From the NCBI RefSeq assembly GCF_023217965.1, contig NZ_JALPSC010000001.1, forward strand, positions 1,860,001-1,924,000: a stretch of 64,000 bases of DNA, given 5' to 3'. The DNA comes from Prevotella sp. E13-27. Its GTDB lineage: Bacteria > Bacteroidota > Bacteroidia > Bacteroidales > Bacteroidaceae. Numbering within the stretch: position 1 is the stretch's first letter; every line of letters starts with the position of its first letter. The position numbers and the translations under genes were made by a program. This document shows positions 37,033 through 43,763 of the stretch, piece after piece. Below the pieces are notes generated by a model. That model made no database searches. It worked only from the letters and a program-made list of their open reading frames with translations, and was not told where the DNA came from.

Positions 37033-37620
37033 TAGTTATGTCATGGGACTGATACCTGACATCTTCTAGCAAACCACAACAAGTTCTGCATTTATATTTG
37101 CGTCATTTCGCTTGTAAACGAAAAAGTCTGTACCTTTGCCTTTGAAAACAGTTCCTTATCTATGCCAGATTGTATTTCTGGCCGTGATTCGGGGCTATTT
37201 TCTGTTTATACGGATTAAATTGATTATTGGAACTCTGAAGTTAACTTAGAAAGTTTAACACAACTTAAAGGTTCACTTCAGTACATTGATACTGTAGAAA
37301 ATGGTGGTAAAGAGGGAAAAACGAAGAAAAAGTCGGTTTTGTGCTCTTATTCTGGCAGTTTTATATTATAGTTATAGCATCCTTGTATTATAGTCCTTAC
37401 TATCTTGAAAACCAAAGTCGTCGACTTTGGTGACCAAACTCGACGAGTTTGTAAATTGGTATAGACAGAACTACATTGCTGTTCAGACTGCCACACATTG
37501 CAATTCTGTCTAAACAAAAATGATGCAGGTACATCGGCATGCTCTACCTGTAGTTTTTGGGTATGGTTGCCAGCTTCTTTGTCGTAAATTACTAATTAAC
37601 AATTATTATCTTTTATCGAA
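37033..37620. other. Intergenic region without a recognisable gene
   Basis: A TACCTTTG -7 box lies at 37131-37138 on the plus strand, followed only by an 18-codon ORF from about 37160. Two strong palindromes at 37411-37451 are listed separately. The rest is A/T-rich and looks degraded. Confidence 0.5.
37411..37451. repeat. Two adjacent near-perfect palindromes
   Basis: ACCAAAGTCG-T-CGACTTTGGT (37411-37431) and CAAACTCG-A-CGAGTTTG (37435-37451), each with a single central base and related sequence. There is no T-run, so they are not terminators; they could be protein-binding sites. Confidence 0.7.
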
Positions 37621-37685
37621 TAAGACAGCGGGGACAGGTGCGCGTTTCGCGTAGGCAAATCATAAATTGTGGATCAGCGGAACCG
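37621..37685. repeat. Repeat X, copy 1 (uninterrupted)
   Basis: The segment TAAGACAGCGGGGACAG (37621-37637) recurs at 40003-40019, and the 37-base segment 37649-37685, ending GGATCAGCGGAACCG, recurs at 41792-41828. Copy 1 keeps both with 11 bases between; in copy 2 they are separated by the second IS110 element. Confidence 0.8.
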
Positions 37686-37723
37686 CATTCTATGCTAAAT
37701 TCCAAACATTGATTGATATTTAA

Positions 37724-38788
37724 CTATATATTTAACACTTGAGGAGCTAGGCTTACCTCGTTACTCGTTCTATACACGTTATCGGGATTGTATTTTACCC
37801 GATCTCTGACCATTGCCACGAGGATGTGCAGCATCTTGTTCTTGATGTTATTATGTATCAGCAACGGATGCTTGCCTCGTTCTATGAGCCGCTGATAATA
37901 GCTGTGTACGTTTATGTCAAACTTAATTGCCGCCAGTGCCGCTTGCGAGAGTAAGGACTTAATCCTCCTGTTGGCAAAAGGACTGACCTGAGGCCTGCTG
38001 TTGACGCTAGTGCCCGATTGTCGTCCGAATGGAGCAATACCATAATAGCAGGCTATCTTCCTTGAGTCTAGGTCAAATTTCTGGAAGTTGTCCGTATAGA
38101 CCATCAGGCACGTCGCATTCTGCACTCCAATGCCTGGCATGGAGGTGATGATGCCAAAGATCTCCCTGAGTTCGTCATCAGAGGCAATGATTTCCTTAAT
38201 CTTCTGGTCACATTTCGCGATGGCTTTGTTTACCTCTGTAATAAGGTGTTTGCTGGTAAAAGACATAAAAGCTCTGGCATCCGACTTCTCCTGTGTGAGA
38301 CGTTTCTCGTCTCTTCTGACCGTCAGTGCTACCTTCTGCCTGACAAGGCTGTGACGATAAAGGAATATCTCTCTCAAACAAGTTAGCGAGGCACTCTGAG
38401 GCTTGTGCAGTATCATCTTGTCGTAGTTACGCATAGCATACTCTGCGATGGCCCGTGAGTCAGCCTTGTCGTTCTTTACACGTTGGATACCTGCAGAGTG
38501 CTTGATCTTGTAGGCACACTCCAGCCACATGTCATAGCCCGAGGCATAAAGATAGTTGCTAAGCCCGATACTATACCCACCGGTATTCTCCCCACAGAAG
38601 AGCCAGGAATCTGCCGCAAAGCCCTCTGCATGAGCCTTCACCCACTTCGCCAGACGACGATAGCCTGATGTTTTGTTGTCAAACACTTCGTGCACGCTAG
38701 GGGCACATTCCTTCAGTCCCTCTGCCTGAATGAGGGTCGCATCAAACTTTTCTTTCGAGAAATCGATGCCAATAAAGATTTTTTTCAT
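37724..38788 (-). CDS. IS110-family transposase (DEDD recombinase), IS A
   Basis: 354 residues. RuvC-like N-terminal domain with DEDD residues in FIGIDFSKEKFD, FCGENTGGYS and KNDKADSRAIAEY; C-terminal transposase domain with MPGIGVQNA and the catalytic-serine region FGRQSGTSVNSRPQVSPFANRRIKS. The enzyme is intact. IS110 recombinases use an RNA encoded in the element to pair donor and target; here that RNA lies upstream of the gene on the same strand. Confidence 0.95.
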   Translation of the reverse strand: MKKIFIGIDFSKEKFDATLIQAEGLKECAPSVHEVFDNKTSGYRRLAKWVKAHAEGFAADSWLFCGENTGGYSIGLSNYLYASGYDMWLECAYKIKHSAGIQRVKNDKADSRAIAEYAMRNYDKMILHKPQSASLTCLREIFLYRHSLVRQKVALTVRRDEKRLTQEKSDARAFMSFTSKHLITEVNKAIAKCDQKIKEIIASDDELREIFGIITSMPGIGVQNATCLMVYTDNFQKFDLDSRKIACYYGIAPFGRQSGTSVNSRPQVSPFANRRIKSLLSQAALAAIKFDINVHSYYQRLIERGKHPLLIHNNIKNKMLHILVAMVRDRVKYNPDNVYRTSNEVSLAPQVLNI

Positions 38789-38799
38789 ACCTTTGTACC

Positions 38800-38978
38800 G
38801 TTAAAATGAAGGAATTGGCCAATAGTTGTCTGGTCTTGGACTCTAAATAGGCTATTATGCCGCTGGCATTCTATCTGGACTTCGCAACTAAGCAGGAAGG
38901 ACTAAGACGGTTCATAGACTCTAAAGGACTGTTGTCCCACGGATAGTTTCCCTTTCCTGTCGGCCTCTTCCTCCTTCT
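38800..38978 (-). ncRNA. Bridge RNA of IS A
   Basis: About 180 nt between the LE end and the transposase, transcribed like the transposase. The target-binding loop is closed by CAGGAAAGG/CCTTCCTG (38951-38959 with 38893-38900) and holds an inner GGAC-AACA-GTCC hairpin. The donor-binding loop is closed by AGTTG/CAACT (38885-38889 with 38824-38828) and holds TGCC-AGC-GGCA (38858-38868). Guides in 5'-3' order: 38934-38943 against the right target flank (8 of 10 plus a wobble), 38906-38913 GAACCGTC against the left target half (8 of 8), 38866-38874 ATAGAATGC against RE (9 of 9), 38839-38846 TTAGAGTC against LE (8 of 8). This order is that of IS621-type bridge RNAs. Confidence 0.8.
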
Positions 38979-38983
38979 GACAA

Positions 38984-39015
38984 CAAAGGTAAGGATTTGG
39001 CCGTGATAAAGCAAA
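38984..39015 (-). promoter_or_regulatory. Promoter of the bridge RNA inside LE
   Basis: Minus-strand TTTG (39012-39015), 20 bases, TACCTTTG (38984-38991): exact Bacteroidota consensus. The predicted start near 38978 gives an RNA beginning just before the first stem. Confidence 0.75.
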
Positions 39016-39043
39016 TTCTTCACTGATATATTCTATCAGAGCG

Positions 39044-39051
39044 CAAAATTA
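39044..39051 (-). promoter_or_regulatory. Orphan -7 element at the LE end of IS A
   Basis: TAATTTTG on the minus strand, four bases from the element end, with no TTTG upstream in the present flank. In a circular form the RE end would supply TTTG (37703-37706) 21 bases upstream, completing a promoter. Confidence 0.6.
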
Positions 39052-39071
39052 GAGTCCCGCTGATCCTGATG

Positions 39072-39356
39072 TCATGCCATCACCTCCTCCTGATGTACAA
39101 CCTGCAAAATTGGAGCGCGAAGGACATTCTCGATAGAGACCAGCGTATCTATGGTAAAGTTGTGGGTACCACGCATCCACTTGCTAATCTCTGCTTCTTT
39201 TTTGCCTAAAAGCATAGCAAGGTCTTTCTGCTTCATGCCTTTCTCAGTAAGAATTTCATGAATGCGATCCACAATTTGAAACGACATGTCGACAGACTCG
39301 CGAATCTCAGGATTCACTGACCTGCGACGATTCTCCAAAATACTACTCCTTTTCAT
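39072..39356 (-). CDS. HigA-like helix-turn-helix antitoxin
   Basis: 94 residues. XRE-type helix-turn-helix at about 38-85 (EKGMKQKDLAMLLGKKEAEISKWMRGTHNFTIDTLVSIENVL). It overlaps the upstream gene by 14 bases, the usual arrangement of a host-inhibition (HigBA) pair with toxin first. It probably binds the palindromes at 39848-39861 and 39908-39922. The gene ends directly before the hairpin into which IS A inserted. Confidence 0.75.
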   Translation of the reverse strand: MKRSSILENRRRSVNPEIRESVDMSFQIVDRIHEILTEKGMKQKDLAMLLGKKEAEISKWMRGTHNFTIDTLVSIENVLRAPILQVVHQEEVMA

Positions 39357-39831
39357 AACGAGTAAAATTTAAATTACCTACAATTTCTTTGTCCACCAAT
39401 ACCACTGAGCCGTCGCTTATGCGTGATGTGATAAAGCGGCTCGTGTCAATCAAGAGTTTTACATAGGGAGCCAGTTCTAAGCTTTCCTCCCATGATGCAG
39501 CATCCTTTACGCCTCCGTTTCCGAATACGAGAATCTTATCAGACAATCTCAAGCAGTAAAGACGTACTTTGTTGCCAACGTCGATGGGGATGACACCCAC
39601 GCCATCGCCGTAGCGACCTTCTGGTCTGAAATAGCGCTCAAGTGCTCCTTTCTCGGCTATCTTGTCTAACCAAGAGATAATTACGTCAATCTCATCGTCG
39701 TATTCACATCCCTCAGGGAATTTCTCAAAGAAAGCCTCCATTTCTGTCAGCTCCTTCCCATTAAGGTGGATGCTATAGAAGTTTACGTTATCGTATTCTT
39801 CAACGAGTTCTATAGTATATTCTTGTTTCAT
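39343..39831 (-). CDS. Putative RelE/HigB-type toxin, long form
   Basis: 162 residues. The segment ISWLDKIAEKGALERYFRPEG and the beta-strand VRLYCLRLSDKILVFGNGGVK resemble the core of RelE/HigB mRNA interferases, but the protein is about 50% longer, with a C-terminal extension (LLIDTSRFITSRISDGSVVLV). The assignment rests mainly on this fold-like pattern and the coupled antitoxin gene. Catalytic residues cannot be named with confidence. Confidence 0.6.
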   Translation of the reverse strand: MKQEYTIELVEEYDNVNFYSIHLNGKELTEMEAFFEKFPEGCEYDDEIDVIISWLDKIAEKGALERYFRPEGRYGDGVGVIPIDVGNKVRLYCLRLSDKILVFGNGGVKDAASWEESLELAPYVKLLIDTSRFITSRISDGSVVLVDKEIVGNLNFTRYEKE

Positions 39832-39847
39832 TTATATCTCTTGTACT

Positions 39848-39922
39848 TAACTTTTAAGTTATCTAGGTGCAAATATACGAAAGTTCTCCTAAATAAGCAA
39901 GAAATTAACTTAAAAATTAAGT
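39848..39922 (-). promoter_or_regulatory. Toxin-antitoxin promoter with two palindromic operators
   Basis: The -7 box TATATTTG is at 39870-39877 (minus strand), with a TTG core at 39898-39900, 20 bases away. TAACTT-TT-AAGTTA (39848-39861) lies just downstream and ACTTAA-AAA-TTAAGT (39908-39922) just upstream. Related half-sites on both sides of the promoter fit autorepression. Confidence 0.65.
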
Positions 39923-40350
39923 AATGTCTGAGAAATTATAGATTAAAGGCGAATTTCATTGTTATGTCAGTGGGCTGTCTGACACACAAAGCATATCCTT
40001 TTTAAGACAGCGGGGACAGATACTGTTTTAAAAACCAAACTTTTTGGATTAAAAGTGAGGCATTTTAACAATTCTTGTCTATTGATTGCATTTACACGCA
40101 GCATTCATGCCCTGTTTTCAATGTAAATTGCGACAGGGCTCTGCTGTGATGTGAGATTCAATGCTTAGTGAGTTCCATAACAACAATCAGTGTATAGCGT
40201 TTATCGTCTGCGGCGATTTTTTTTCTGATGTTTACGGGTGCTGCCGCACTGTTTCTCCTCAGCAGTGTGCTATGTTTTATGATTATTTCTTTGTTATTTA
40301 AAAGAATTTGATTAACTTTGCAGCCATCAAGGGAAGACAGCGTTCTGCGG

Positions 40351-41463
40351 CTATTCTTCAGCCAATGTCCCAACATCTATCCCGTGAGGCTGGCCTTCAG
40401 TGGTTTCAGCCTCTTTCTTTTGCTTATCACATGCAGTTTTGTTACGTGTCGGGTCATACTTCTCTCCACTTTTCCAAAGGCTGTATATGAGCAGTAGTAG
40501 CTTGCGCATGGTGGCTGTCACTCCAATCATTTTCGACTGTGTATTCCTGTCACATAGGCGCCCATAGAAATCTTTCATCTGAGGATTACACTGAGTGCTG
40601 ACAATGGCAGGAAAATAGAGTGCCGTTCTGATGTGTACGTTTCCCTGCTTTGAGATGTGACGCTTAGGGTCTACAGGTCCCGACTGATGTGCAGGAACAT
40701 CAAGCCCTGCATATCTTGTCAGTTGCTTGCGGTTAGTTATCAGCGCAAAGCCATTTGTCTCTGCAACCACTGTAGCTACAGTCATAAACCCTATGCCGTT
40801 GATGGTTGTGATACGGTCAATACGCTCTGACAGTCCGGGCTCCTGCTTGATCTTCTCGCGGATGGCCTTCTGATTACTGTCCAGCTGTTTGTCTATCTCG
40901 TTGATAAGTTTGTTATAGTGCTTGACGATGCTCTTCTCCGCTATCTCGCTGTGTGCGAGTGCCTCCAGATGGTTCCTCAACTGTGTCTTGACCTTGTTGA
41001 TGTCGGCCACGAAACGCGTCATCTGTCGCAGTTCCCTATAGATAGGAGATGGCGGTGCCCAAGGTTTGAGGCGCTTGTCCAAACACCCAAGCATCCCAAG
41101 AGTATAGGCATCCATGTTATCGGTCTTTGTGAGGATACCCTCGTACTTTGCAAACTCACGGGCCTTGTTAGGCAACACAACGCAGACGTTCAGACTGAGT
41201 TTGTTCAGATGGGATGCCAGCTGCTCGTAATAGACACCAGTGGGTTCCATCACATAGCGCAGAGGGTAGCCCTTCAGAGCCTCTTTACGGCTCCATTTGA
41301 CGAACTGGTTGAAACCAGTCTTGTCGTTGTTAAACACTACAGGGGCGGTAGAGCATCCCTGATCGAACTCATACATACACAGGCAGGCCGTGAACGTACC
41401 CTTTGCAATGTCGATTCCCACGCACTGCATAAACCACTTGCCAGGTTTGAAATTCGGTTTCAT
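40351..41463 (-). CDS. IS110-family transposase, IS B
   Basis: 370 residues. DEDD residues in CVGIDIAKGTFTAC, VMEPTGVYYEQL and LTKTDNMDAYTLG; C-terminal domain with TINGIGFMTVATVVAE and HQSG...RHISKQGNVHIRTALY. It differs clearly from IS A and belongs to another IS110 subgroup. Intact frame. Confidence 0.93.
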   Translation of the reverse strand: MKPNFKPGKWFMQCVGIDIAKGTFTACLCMYEFDQGCSTAPVVFNNDKTGFNQFVKWSRKEALKGYPLRYVMEPTGVYYEQLASHLNKLSLNVCVVLPNKAREFAKYEGILTKTDNMDAYTLGMLGCLDKRLKPWAPPSPIYRELRQMTRFVADINKVKTQLRNHLEALAHSEIAEKSIVKHYNKLINEIDKQLDSNQKAIREKIKQEPGLSERIDRITTINGIGFMTVATVVAETNGFALITNRKQLTRYAGLDVPAHQSGPVDPKRHISKQGNVHIRTALYFPAIVSTQCNPQMKDFYGRLCDRNTQSKMIGVTATMRKLLLLIYSLWKSGEKYDPTRNKTACDKQKKEAETTEGQPHGIDVGTLAEE

Positions 41464-41499
41464 ACGGTTTGAATTTTGAGTTAATAATGTTGATGATTA

Positions 41500-41700
41500 T
41501 AGCCTCAAATCCTCACCGCCTTTCCTCTTGTATATACTCTGAATCATCCTCTGCCATACATAAAGGATGTCCTCTGATACTTTGTCCTGGCTCCAAAGAT
41601 CTGAAAACGAGGGTGGAAGCTTATCCTGTCCCACGATATAGTCTCTACTTATCTAGGTGAGTGTCTTCTCACCCTCAACGGCATAAATCTCTAGCAAAGC
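41500..41700 (-). ncRNA. Candidate bridge RNA of IS B
   Basis: Upstream of the transposase on the same strand. A loop closed by GAGGGTG/CACCCTC (41670-41676 with 41609-41615) contains GGGACAGG (41625-41632), matching the left flank GGGACAG at 40013-40019. Further 3', AGTATC (41576-41581) matches the RE end at 40019-40024. A right donor match is only approximate. A TAGCTTTG box is at 41695-41702. Much weaker than for IS A. Confidence 0.4.
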
Positions 41701-41791
41701 TACAAAACTTAAACCGTATTGCATCCATCTGCAAGAAATATTTCATGAAAATGGAACAATCTCTATAATCGGATGCAAAGGTAAGAGATGA

Positions 41792-41828
41792 GCGTAGGCA
41801 AATCATAAATTGTGGATCAGCGGAACCG
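41792..41828. repeat. Repeat X, right half of copy 2
   Basis: 37 bases identical to 37649-37685; followed by an intact hairpin site GGATCAGCG...CGCTGATCC (41817-41843). Confidence 0.85.
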
Positions 41829-42030
41829 TCTCGCTGATCCTCCCAATGGCCAACACGACATCTTTGATGCTGTTGAAGGTAATGTGCTAGTGGGTGATGA
41901 TGGGTACATTTATTTTATTGACACAATCATTTACCCGTCCGATACGGATGGCTACGAGACCTATTGCAGCCTATCGCCCAGAGCAAGCTCGAAAAACAAA
42001 AATAATAAAACAAAAGCGCTTAATAACTAA
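41812..42030 (+). pseudogene. 3' fragment of a kinase-like polyvalent/mobile-element protein
   Basis: About 72 codons without a good start; an in-frame stop lies immediately upstream. The core GNVLVGDDGYIYFIDTIIYP resembles the D-x-N...D-x-D segment of the protein-kinase-like domains of Bacteroidales mobile-element proteins. The 5' part of the gene is missing, its place taken by repeat X and IS B. Probably a remnant. Confidence 0.45.
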
Positions 42031-42047
42031 TTCCTATGATTATAGGC

Positions 42048-43763
42048 TTATTTCGTTAAACGCTTAATCAGTTGGTCATAGTCAATACTGCCACATATAA
42101 TTCTCTTCTTACAATGGTAATTAGGTGAAAGCAGATTCTTGTCTTCCTGATTCCATTTACTTGAAATGCCAGCAAGATAGAGTAGTAACTGAGGTAGGCC
42201 GTCAGTCATGAAAGGTTTGTCATGAGATTGCTCTATTTGCTGTATAATTTCTGGATGACTACATCTGTAAGATTTAGAACACCATATCCACATTGGAACC
42301 TCATGCTCATTTTTTGCTTGTGCCGCTGTCGGTTCTTGAAATAGTCTTCCATTAACTTTCAAGTCATCGTATACTTCTTCTCCATGATCTGAGACGAACA
42401 GAATAATAGCGTCATCATCTCTATATATGTTAATGATGTTGTCAAGAACAAGGTCATTATAGTGCGTGGCATTGTCATAGTGCATTACTATATTCTTTTC
42501 GTCTTTGCTGATGTCTCTGTCCGAATAATCATCTATGGAGAATGTCGCTTCGATTTTTGGATAGCGTATAGAATAATCAAAATGCTGGCCAATTAAGTGA
42601 ATGATGTCTAATGTGCATTCTGTTTGATTTCTACTATTTTTGAAATCTGAGATTTGTTCGACCAATCCAATGTCATATTTGCTCCTTTTCCTGTTGCGGA
42701 ATGTGAATAGTGAGTCGCTCATCTCTCTATCTGCAAGGAAGAAATGTCCAGCCTGATTAGTGACCCCCTTACGGAATCCTTTCAAAAGATATTGGTTGGA
42801 AAAGAAATTAACTGAATAGCCTGCACGTCGGAACAGCATAGGGAACAGTGGCTTGGTTACTATAGGCTCTGGCATTCCGAATTCCCACATAGAAAAAAGA
42901 TCGAGAAACACATTGCTCGTAATGTTCCAAGGGGTTACAACATCATGGAATACAAACAGCTTTCCGTCTTCAAATAGTTCCTGTTGTCTTGGGGTCGTTT
43001 GCAAGTGGTAACCATAGAGCGTGGAATGATGTTTGTTGTAGCTTTCACCGATGACAAAGACTATATGAGGTGACATATATATGCAACTGTCAATCTGCGC
43101 GGTGAACGTTACACGTTTAATTTCTTCAAGTTGTTGTGACGATTGCTGCAATGAGTAGCATGCAAATGCAAATCGGTGCAATGGTGTGGGTATCTTTTCA
43201 TGGTAGTGGCGGAAAATAAGACCTTCCATGCTTTTCAAGTCGCCTCTTTGCCAGAAGAGTTGTAGGAACCTGTAGGAAGATGGAAGTTCGTAGATGAAGC
43301 ATAAAGATGTTATTACAATTACCGCATATCTACTCATTCTACTCCATTTGACAGTTATTCTTCTGTTGATAAATGATAAATATGATAATGGCAGGAGAAT
43401 AACCAATGATAGTTCAGCTGTAATACGCCAGCTTGATAACAAATGCGAGCCAATGAATGTAGAAAGAAATTCCCGTGTCTCACGTGAATCGCTCAGAAGA
43501 ACATTAGAAAGAATCTGAGGCGTGACTTGGGTCATAAACATATCTTGACAATAGCAATCGACAAGACAGATTGTTACAATAACTTCACCAATAAAAAATC
43601 CTGTTACTTTCCTATAATTGCCAGTGAGAAAAGAAACAGCGTAGCTCAAAACAAAAGCAGTAAATGTAGGGGCTGTTAATAAATGAAACGACAGCCCGCT
43701 TGTTGTGTTAACACACAGCAAACAGGCTGCCAAAACTGTAAAAAAAAGATTTAATGAATTCAA
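42048..43763 (-). CDS. Phosphoethanolamine transferase-like membrane protein (sulfatase fold)
   Basis: 571 residues. Five N-terminal membrane helices (about 1-170) are followed by an alkaline-phosphatase-fold domain. Nucleophile region VFVIGESYNKHHSTLYGY, then metal-site sequence SDHGEEVYDD and a later NEHEVPMWIW. This is the EptA/CptA pattern of enzymes that add phosphoethanolamine to lipid A, core sugars or glycans; the residue at the nucleophile position is serine rather than threonine. Last gene of a four-gene operon, five bases after the lipoprotein gene. Confidence 0.83.
   Translation of the reverse strand: MNSLNLFFTVLAACLLCVNTTSGLSFHLLTAPTFTAFVLSYAVSFLTGNYRKVTGFFIGEVIVTICLVDCYCQDMFMTQVTPQILSNVLLSDSRETREFLSTFIGSHLLSSWRITAELSLVILLPLSYLSFINRRITVKWSRMSRYAVIVITSLCFIYELPSSYRFLQLFWQRGDLKSMEGLIFRHYHEKIPTPLHRFAFACYSLQQSSQQLEEIKRVTFTAQIDSCIYMSPHIVFVIGESYNKHHSTLYGYHLQTTPRQQELFEDGKLFVFHDVVTPWNITSNVFLDLFSMWEFGMPEPIVTKPLFPMLFRRAGYSVNFFSNQYLLKGFRKGVTNQAGHFFLADREMSDSLFTFRNRKRSKYDIGLVEQISDFKNSRNQTECTLDIIHLIGQHFDYSIRYPKIEATFSIDDYSDRDISKDEKNIVMHYDNATHYNDLVLDNIINIYRDDDAIILFVSDHGEEVYDDLKVNGRLFQEPTAAQAKNEHEVPMWIWCSKSYRCSHPEIIQQIEQSHDKPFMTDGLPQLLLYLAGISSKWNQEDKNLLSPNYHCKKRIICGSIDYDQLIKRLTK

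Follow-up and report, generated by a model that had tools for sequence, protein, structure and literature searches.

Bridge RNAs were published in 2024, and 85.7% of the IS110-group entries of ISfinder are predicted to have one (PMC11208160). In IS621, the RNA lies in the long left end of the element, is about 170-180 nt in length, and carries a target loop followed by a donor loop (PMC11208160, PMC11208158), the 5' guide of each loop reading the bottom strand and the 3' guide the top strand. With the junction nucleotide (a C in our element) counted as position 9, its left target guide covers t1-t9 and its left donor guide d1-d8 (PMC11208158). The insertion sequence described here is alike in each of these respects, and also in its DEDD and Ser residues and, it appears, in its donor-loop handshake base. 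With ISEc21 and ISMch6 it shares an upstream non-coding RNA (their seekRNA) that matches both target strands, the bottom-strand match lying 5' of the top-strand match, and the natural redirection of relatives with a changed guide (PMC11187229), but their target is another one, their seekRNA is a shorter, 74-nt form, and more natural redirections are visible in the present clade. The IS1111 group (ISEc11, ISPa11) also has a DEDD recombinase and RNA-guided target choice (PMC11187229), but there the RNA is found downstream of the gene, the order of the strand matches is reversed, and there are subterminal inverted repeats of 7-17 bp. The locus represents a known kind of system (IS621, ISEc21), with a core in which usually only a C is shared, a closing stem, and a promoter-like motif in the left end as clade-specific traits. 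Among titles and abstract openings of the open PMC literature no description of this Prevotella-type clade was found, which is weak as an indication of absence.

The window is the whole 64,000-nt stretch of Prevotella sp. E13-27 DNA that was analysed, and coordinates refer to it unless prefixed C2. The element, its target and its RNA are placed as follows.

37685-39054, minus strand: IS110-group insertion sequence, called IS A (three copies, 100% identical, with differing flanks, and an uninterrupted target)
37724-38788, minus strand: recombinase gene, 354 aa (PF01548, PF02371, NF033542, phmmer to IS621 8wt6)
38811-38978, minus strand: structured part, 168 nt, of the very probable bridge RNA (168 bits with covariance model R1; covariation)
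37671-37684, plus strand: target half past the right end, the minus strand reading GGTTCCGCTGATCC (sequence read)
39055-39066, plus strand: target half past the left end, the minus strand reading GGATCAGCGGGA (sequence read)
41814-41840, plus strand: uninterrupted copy of the target, one base different (sequence comparison)

IS A is 1369 bp long plus one core base, a single C (37685 or 39054, minus strand) being common to both junctions. Its DEDD/Tnp recombinase scores 54.9 bits against PF01548 (cut-off 29), 58.4 bits against PF02371 (cut-off 21.3), and 144.5 bits (cut-off 140) against NF033542, 'IS110 family RNA-guided transposase', under which NCBIfam already names the protein. It aligns with the solved IS621 chain 8wt6 (phmmer, E=2e-17), with D9, E67, D107, D110 and S258 opposite IS621 D11, E60, D102, D105 and S241, as counted off the printed alignment with an assumed chain offset of 2 residues. 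G70 is aligned to IS621 G63, a residue that touches the second core base (PMC11208158). The non-coding left end is long (265 nt, 39053 to 38789) and the right end short (39 nt, 37723 to 37685), as is usual for the IS110 group. The IS1111 group was considered and rejected, since the RNA lies upstream of the gene and the right end has only 39 nt; judged by eye from the printed ends, the inverted repeats amount to TAGA/TCTA, with no subterminal repeats of the IS1111 type in view. A distant blastn search of a plasmid collection gave no match. The target reconstructed from the two flanks (37671-37685 then 39055-39066) is found elsewhere in the genome as an identical, uninterrupted 27-mer at C2:1641067-1641093 and reads GGATCAGCGGGACGGTTCCGCTGATCC on the relevant strand.

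The RNA consists of a closing stem (GGAA..GGCC with GGCC..TTCC), a target-binding stem-loop and a donor-binding stem-loop, in that order. The closing stem joins the ends of the RNA, whereas a 5' stem-loop is described for IS621. The guide order, the strand use, the place upstream of the gene and the size agree with the published descriptions of IS621 (PMC11208160, PMC11208158), the roughly 180 nt given in the earlier note being corrected to 168 nt for the structured part. Covariance model R1, built from 18 RNAs including that of the window, matches in 59 of 62 sources (E up to 1) and has no match in loci L135-L137, where protein identity is 36%. On the model-fitted alignment of 41 distinct sequences, which is biased toward the structure, 25 of the 26 stem pairs are changed on both sides and 96.0% of cells are paired, a level that shuffles did not reach and that sliding the partners destroyed; on an unfitted alignment of 18 sequences, 6 of the 26 pairs are changed on both sides. 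The stems therefore do covary, a point on which the earlier note had let its reading depend, and the covariation supports a structured RNA with two internal loops, as in bridge RNAs. Folded alone, the window RNA is no better than its shuffles (z = -0.22). An Rfam search of 37500-42500 under an E-value threshold found no bridge RNA family; its sole match, on another stretch, was mir-492 with 18.7 bits (gathering score 76).

Within the RNA, the guides and handshake positions are these.

38934-38942, minus strand: left target guide CCGUGGGAC, covering t1-t9 up to and including the junction C (homologous place in 41/50 insertions; permutation 0/20000)
38907-38913, minus strand: right target guide GAACC with core partners G and U, pairing with ACGGTTC (full pairing at 3/3 genomic sites; permutation 0/20000)
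38905-38906, minus strand: target-loop handshake position CU (homology to IS621 81-82; first base unpaired with donor d7=T in this clade)
38867-38874, minus strand: left donor guide AUAGAAUG, d1-d8 (8/8 with the right end; 8/8 in 32/32 rows)
38840-38846, minus strand: right donor guide UUAGAGU (pairs with left end CTCTAA; follows three left-end types)
38838-38839, minus strand: donor-loop handshake guide CC, pairing with target t7 t6 = GG (first base with t7 in 36/42 rows, 14/17 by guide class)

The earlier note had claimed four guides, all matched to the element's own insertion site. Read directly from the sequence, the four matches lie where they had been placed, but the claim holds in full for this one insertion only, and then only by way of an 8-of-10 match: minus-strand 38934-38943 (TCCGTGGGAC) against the flank TCAGCGGGAC gives 8 Watson-Crick pairs and one wobble over 10 positions. 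Minus-strand 38906-38913 reads GAACCGTC, and 38866-38874 reads ATAGAATGC, the complement of 37685-37693 at the right end, just as proposed. The left-end match needed trimming. Minus-strand 38839-38846 reads TTAGAGTC and is identical to the plus strand at 39049-39056, but its last two bases (39055-39056) are target bases retained at the left-end junction, leaving UUAGAG and a possible U:G wobble as the donor part of the guide. The string TTAGAGTC occurs twice in the RNA, at 38839-38846 and again at 38917-38924. The second copy, UUAGAGUC, is the right donor guide with the next base and sits in the target-loop hairpin, an arrangement present in this clade and absent from the second family of the genome (see below).

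Of 20000 dinucleotide shuffles of the 194-nt RNA, 38 contained GAACCGTC, 11 ATAGAATGC and 217 TTAGAGTC, and 1340 gave a left target match of 8 out of 10. In no shuffle did more than one of the three exact strings occur, nor did all four matches occur in order, but the strings were those chosen by the earlier note and the test flatters them. A search free of preset strings in the window alone gave p=0.083 for the left target and p=0.63 for the right target 8-mer counted from the core C. Taken alone, the window is suggestive and no proof, and it is the relatives that make the case.

These came from one scan of genome contigs from Prevotella and other Bacteroidales (39 loci) and from places in 18 of 301 family genomes. 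The resulting guide table has 61 entries and 54 distinct RNA/flank combinations, 50 with a left flank of at least nine bases and 43 usable for the right flank. Rows were left out for four loci without a left end in their contig (L048, L075-L077) and one without a left flank (L056). Never entered were L080-L082 (no element seen upstream), L121-L122 (upstream stretch the same as in L120), L135-L139, and loci L084-L116, which repeat places already entered. Left ends, right ends and RNA starts were chosen by motif, so the conservation of those motifs is partly by construction.

When the nine target bases ending at the junction C were sought anywhere in the RNA, 41 of 50 insertions had their best match at RNA index 38-41, and nine had it elsewhere, namely L015, L045, L049, L050, L059, L069, L070, L072 and L083. 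For the right target 8-mer, the best match was at index 60-70 in 23 of 43 flanks. For the permutations the guides were read at a fixed position and each guide and each target was represented once, shared ancestry being left uncorrected. On the left, 27 representatives gave an observed mean of 6.96 of 8 (best permuted 5.48, 0/20000), and on the right, the observed mean of 19 representatives was 4.92 of 6, where the best permutation reached 4.82 (0/20000). One of these, L052, had scored on a string outside the guide; when it was removed and the guide place narrowed, the remaining 18 gave 4.86 (best permuted 4.64, 0/20000). The target loop of the relatives covaries with the target on both strands, as that of a bridge RNA does. 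The right flanks of L052, L064, L066, L067 and L073 begin with TCTA, which resembles the element's own left end TCTAA, and they have no fit to the right target guide.

As a held-out check, the covariance model was run over 121 family genomes and returned five RNA places new to the table and the L083 locus. Four of the new places (L171, L172, L173 and L175) have their best left match at index 40, with 8, 9, 7 and 9 of 9 bases, and the last three of these are close relatives of one another with differing guides; the fifth (L174) is without a left flank in its contig. The guide of L176, which is the L083 locus, fits its left flank badly. The L083/L176 copy is immediately preceded by ATAGAAAGC, with which elements of another subgroup end on the right, as if it had been inserted into or beside the end of another element.

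The donor loop pairs with both element ends, again as in bridge RNAs. Its left guide equals the right-end bases d1-d8, 8/8 in all 32 rows with a right end and over six end types, the frame of the right end in L123 having been set by the motif used for picking. The right guide follows the left end over three types (CTCTAA, CCCTAA and CCTTAC) with 5.5 to 7 of 7 pairs, though a similar string in the target hairpin is the better match for L054 and L079 and ties with the guide in several other rows. Re-lettering also extends to the handshake. The first donor-loop handshake base pairs with t7 in 36 of 42 rows (C:G 22, G:C 6, U:A 8), with wobbles in 2 more, against a shuffle mean of 15.8 and with 0/5000 shuffles reaching this count; with one row per guide class it pairs in 14 of 17, a value reached by 3/20000 shuffles. 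The second base pairs with t6 in 31 of 42 rows (0/5000 shuffles). In the target loop, 19 of 34 rows have a pair between the first handshake base and d7, against a shuffle mean of 9.1, and the second base is uninformative, because d6 is always A. The window's own clade has C against d7=T at the first position, which gives no pair, and this C could pair with the target's own t7. In IS621, cognate handshake pairing blocked exchange, both when the two loops were changed and when the donor loop was (PMC11208158).

Wherever both ends are available (43 entries), the two junctions differ from each other over positions 6-9, which is read as the left-end junction keeping the target letters at these positions and the right-end junction the donor letters. 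The natural breakpoint, with target through C9 and element from position 10, lies just 3' of position 9, where the top strand of IS621 is cut (between 9 and 10; PMC11208158). A core of GG, taken from the GG repeated at both junctions, was dropped, since the uninterrupted site and the second family both place the junction after C. The core is NC: the donor has GC except in L073 and L123, and the target AC, GC, TC or CC. IS621 has a CT core with a near-invariant T9, as do its close orthologues, whereas here position 9 is C, the first core base is usually unlike between target (mostly A) and donor (G), and usually the second base C alone is shared rather than a whole dinucleotide. The excerpts drawn on present the shared dinucleotide as a property of IS621 and close orthologues and do not state it as a rule for all bridge RNAs. 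The RNA partner of core position 8 is U or C, U being able to pair with both A and G.

All three identical copies of IS A sit at GGGAC|GGTTC, with junctions CAGCGGGAC|GGTTC, CACGGGGAC|GGTTC and AATGGGGAC|GGTTC, where copies with the same RNA at unrelated targets had been named beforehand as a result that would count against a guide. The right guide and core partners (GAACCGU) pair in full at all three, while the left guide CCGUGGGAC fits with 7 and a wobble, 6, and 5 of 9 bases. Genome-wide there are 9 occurrences of the motif GGGACGGTTC and 5 of its reversed control, so that the motif by itself is not rare; two of the nine sites (L154 and L157) lie visibly in palindromes, and a third (L152) is a tandem repeat adjoining the third copy. 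The ideal core target derived from the guide, CGTGGGACGGTTC, showed no genome-wide excess at up to 2 mismatches (74 against 88 for the reversed control, 0 exact).

A second family, with 66% DNA and 64% protein identity to IS A, has six copies in the same genome, and model R1 finds nine RNAs there, at the nine places of both families. Its sites read GGATTT(C/T)AC|GGAT, that is GGATTTCAC|GGAT or GGATTTTAC|GGAT, and its RNA has GGATTTCAC at the place homologous to CCGTGGGAC of the first family. On the right, AUCUGU replaces GAACCGU and pairs with ACGGAT with one wobble. The pattern GGATTTCACGGAT has 39 matches in the genome and its reverse 0. With differing guides and differing sites, the two families amount to two natural programmes of the same machine in one genome.

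Among other readings of the locus, the one that survives best, though it is unlikely, is that the bridge RNA worked in the past but is in decay in this genome, its three copies being relics. The left guide does fit its own sites worse than in many relatives, and may have lost a G (CGTGGGAC here, CGTGGGGAC in L046, L050 and L074). The complete pairing of the right guide at every site argues the other way, as do the three identical copies at distinct sites, all with the same guide, and the open 354-aa frame; identical copies at distinct sites and an open frame imply recent transposition. We are highly confident that this region is a bridge RNA, and that the IS110-group insertion sequence to which it belongs is active or was so recently.

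Transcription of the RNA may be served by motifs close to the consensus for Bacteroides promoters, -33 TTTG / -7 TAnnTTTG (PMC7366714).

38984-38991, minus strand: -7-like box TACCTTTG, just 5' of the RNA (TAnnTTTG match)
39012-39015, minus strand: -33-like TTTG, 20 nt from the -7 box (sequence read)
39044-39053, minus strand: left end terminus TCTAATTTTG, with the right donor (d10 on) and a TAnnTTTG -7-like box TAATTTTG (sequence comparison)
37703-37706, minus strand: right-end TTTG, which a joining of the ends into a circle would place 20 nt from TAATTTTG (end-pair comparison)

A TAnnTTTG box is present in 31 of 33 distinct upstream stretches, the motif used for picking the stretches overlapping the box. 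Among 24 distinct end pairs, 8 have a TTTG within 17-23 nt of the terminal box, all 8 of them at 20 nt. The IS621 promoter forms across the circle junction (PMC11208160), whereas here a Bacteroides-type promoter-like motif lies within the left end, with a possible circle-junction promoter in addition; both are candidate promoters on the evidence of their letters. If the left end does contain a promoter of its own, the integrated element could make its guide without circularisation. Over the recombinase start codon (38788-38795 and homologous places), CAAAnnTA is kept in 39 of 40 distinct RNAs, and on the other strand this is TAnnTTTG, a -7-like box aimed antisense through the bridge RNA.

The box kept at the start codon and facing the RNA would suit a transposase regulator, acting as leader or antisense control, with the likeness to target and ends reflecting DNA-level binding sites of the recombinase; the IS110-family ISPpu9 is also thought to be modulated by small RNAs (as cited in PMC11208160). 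Such a regulator is very improbable here, since protein-DNA recognition needs no letter-for-letter change of an RNA with each target, on both strands and in the IS621 order, and the handshake covariation would be without meaning. That the matches are chance or by-eye selection in an ordinary untranslated leader of the transposase gene, as the window-alone p values, the unremarkable fold and the doubled donor string might suggest, is the least credible reading, because in the relatives the guides covary with targets and ends at a fixed structural place, the stems covary, an uninterrupted target is found elsewhere, and the permutation tests contradict it unless the locus table is biased.

That the RNA at 38811-38978 is a bridge RNA is, then, very probable. 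The analysis directly observed the sequence matches, the placement at homologous positions, the covariation in stems and in guides, one unoccupied site and several insertions. Speaking against this reading are the fold of the window RNA, no better than its shuffles, the left guide's fit at its own sites (7 and a wobble, 6, and 5 of 9), the lack of a genomic excess of CGTGGGACGGTTC, the 9 of 50 left misses, the right flanks (23/43), the five flanks that begin with TCTA, L083, and the target-loop handshake base that in this clade can pair with the cognate t7. By homology to IS621, the RNA would be transcribed and would bind the recombinase encoded downstream; the first of its internal loops would pair with both strands of GGGAC|GGTTC, a target that in this case forms a palindrome's loop, and the second would pair with the two element ends where they meet in the excised circle (AUAGAAUG-C-UCUAA). 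The donor-loop handshake base would capture the incoming target strand, and the recombinase would swap strands just past the shared C. The circular intermediate and the chemistry of exchange are likewise presumed from IS621.

Rather tentatively, and with somewhat less than even confidence, we suggest that this Bacteroidales clade works with unlike target and donor cores (C9 usually the sole shared base, position 8 being A in most targets and G in donors and bridged by U or C in the RNA), has its own left-end promoter heading the RNA, and in the palindrome-targeting branch uses a target-loop handshake that pairs with the cognate target, contrary to the locking rule of IS621. In this natural clade, evolution has changed the letters of the target guides, the donor guides and the donor-loop handshake base alike, and occupied sites can be compared with unoccupied ones; it thereby offers a test bed for the generality of the IS621 rules: an identical core dinucleotide, no cognate handshake pairing, and a circle-only promoter. 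It also points to a recombinase that reads C in place of T as the second core base; this would enlarge the range of addressable cores.

The neighbourhood holds a second IS110-family element at 40020-41791 (ends estimated), with a recombinase at 40351-41463 on the minus strand that scores 182 bits against NF033542. It probably has its own bridge RNA, as its upstream region holds GTGGGACAG, which can pair with CTGTCCCC at its right flank. This element and IS A split two copies of one repeat (AAGACAGCGGGGACAG ... GCGTAGGCAAATCATAAATTGTGGATCAGCGG...), at 37622-37685 for IS A and at 40004-40019 with 41792-41840 for the second element, so that each copy shows the target of the other empty. The second element has just one other long match in the genome (C2:1055357-1055670 and C2:1056982-1058468, L168 and L167). 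About 1.3 kb separates its two parts, whose matched stretches overlap by 9 bases, as if left by an insertion with target duplication. Adjoining the IS A insertion are two small, overlapping genes within 39072-39831, one for an HTH protein (39072-39356) and one for a 162-aa protein (39343-39831), a pair that in its arrangement resembles the two-gene layout of toxin-antitoxin systems.
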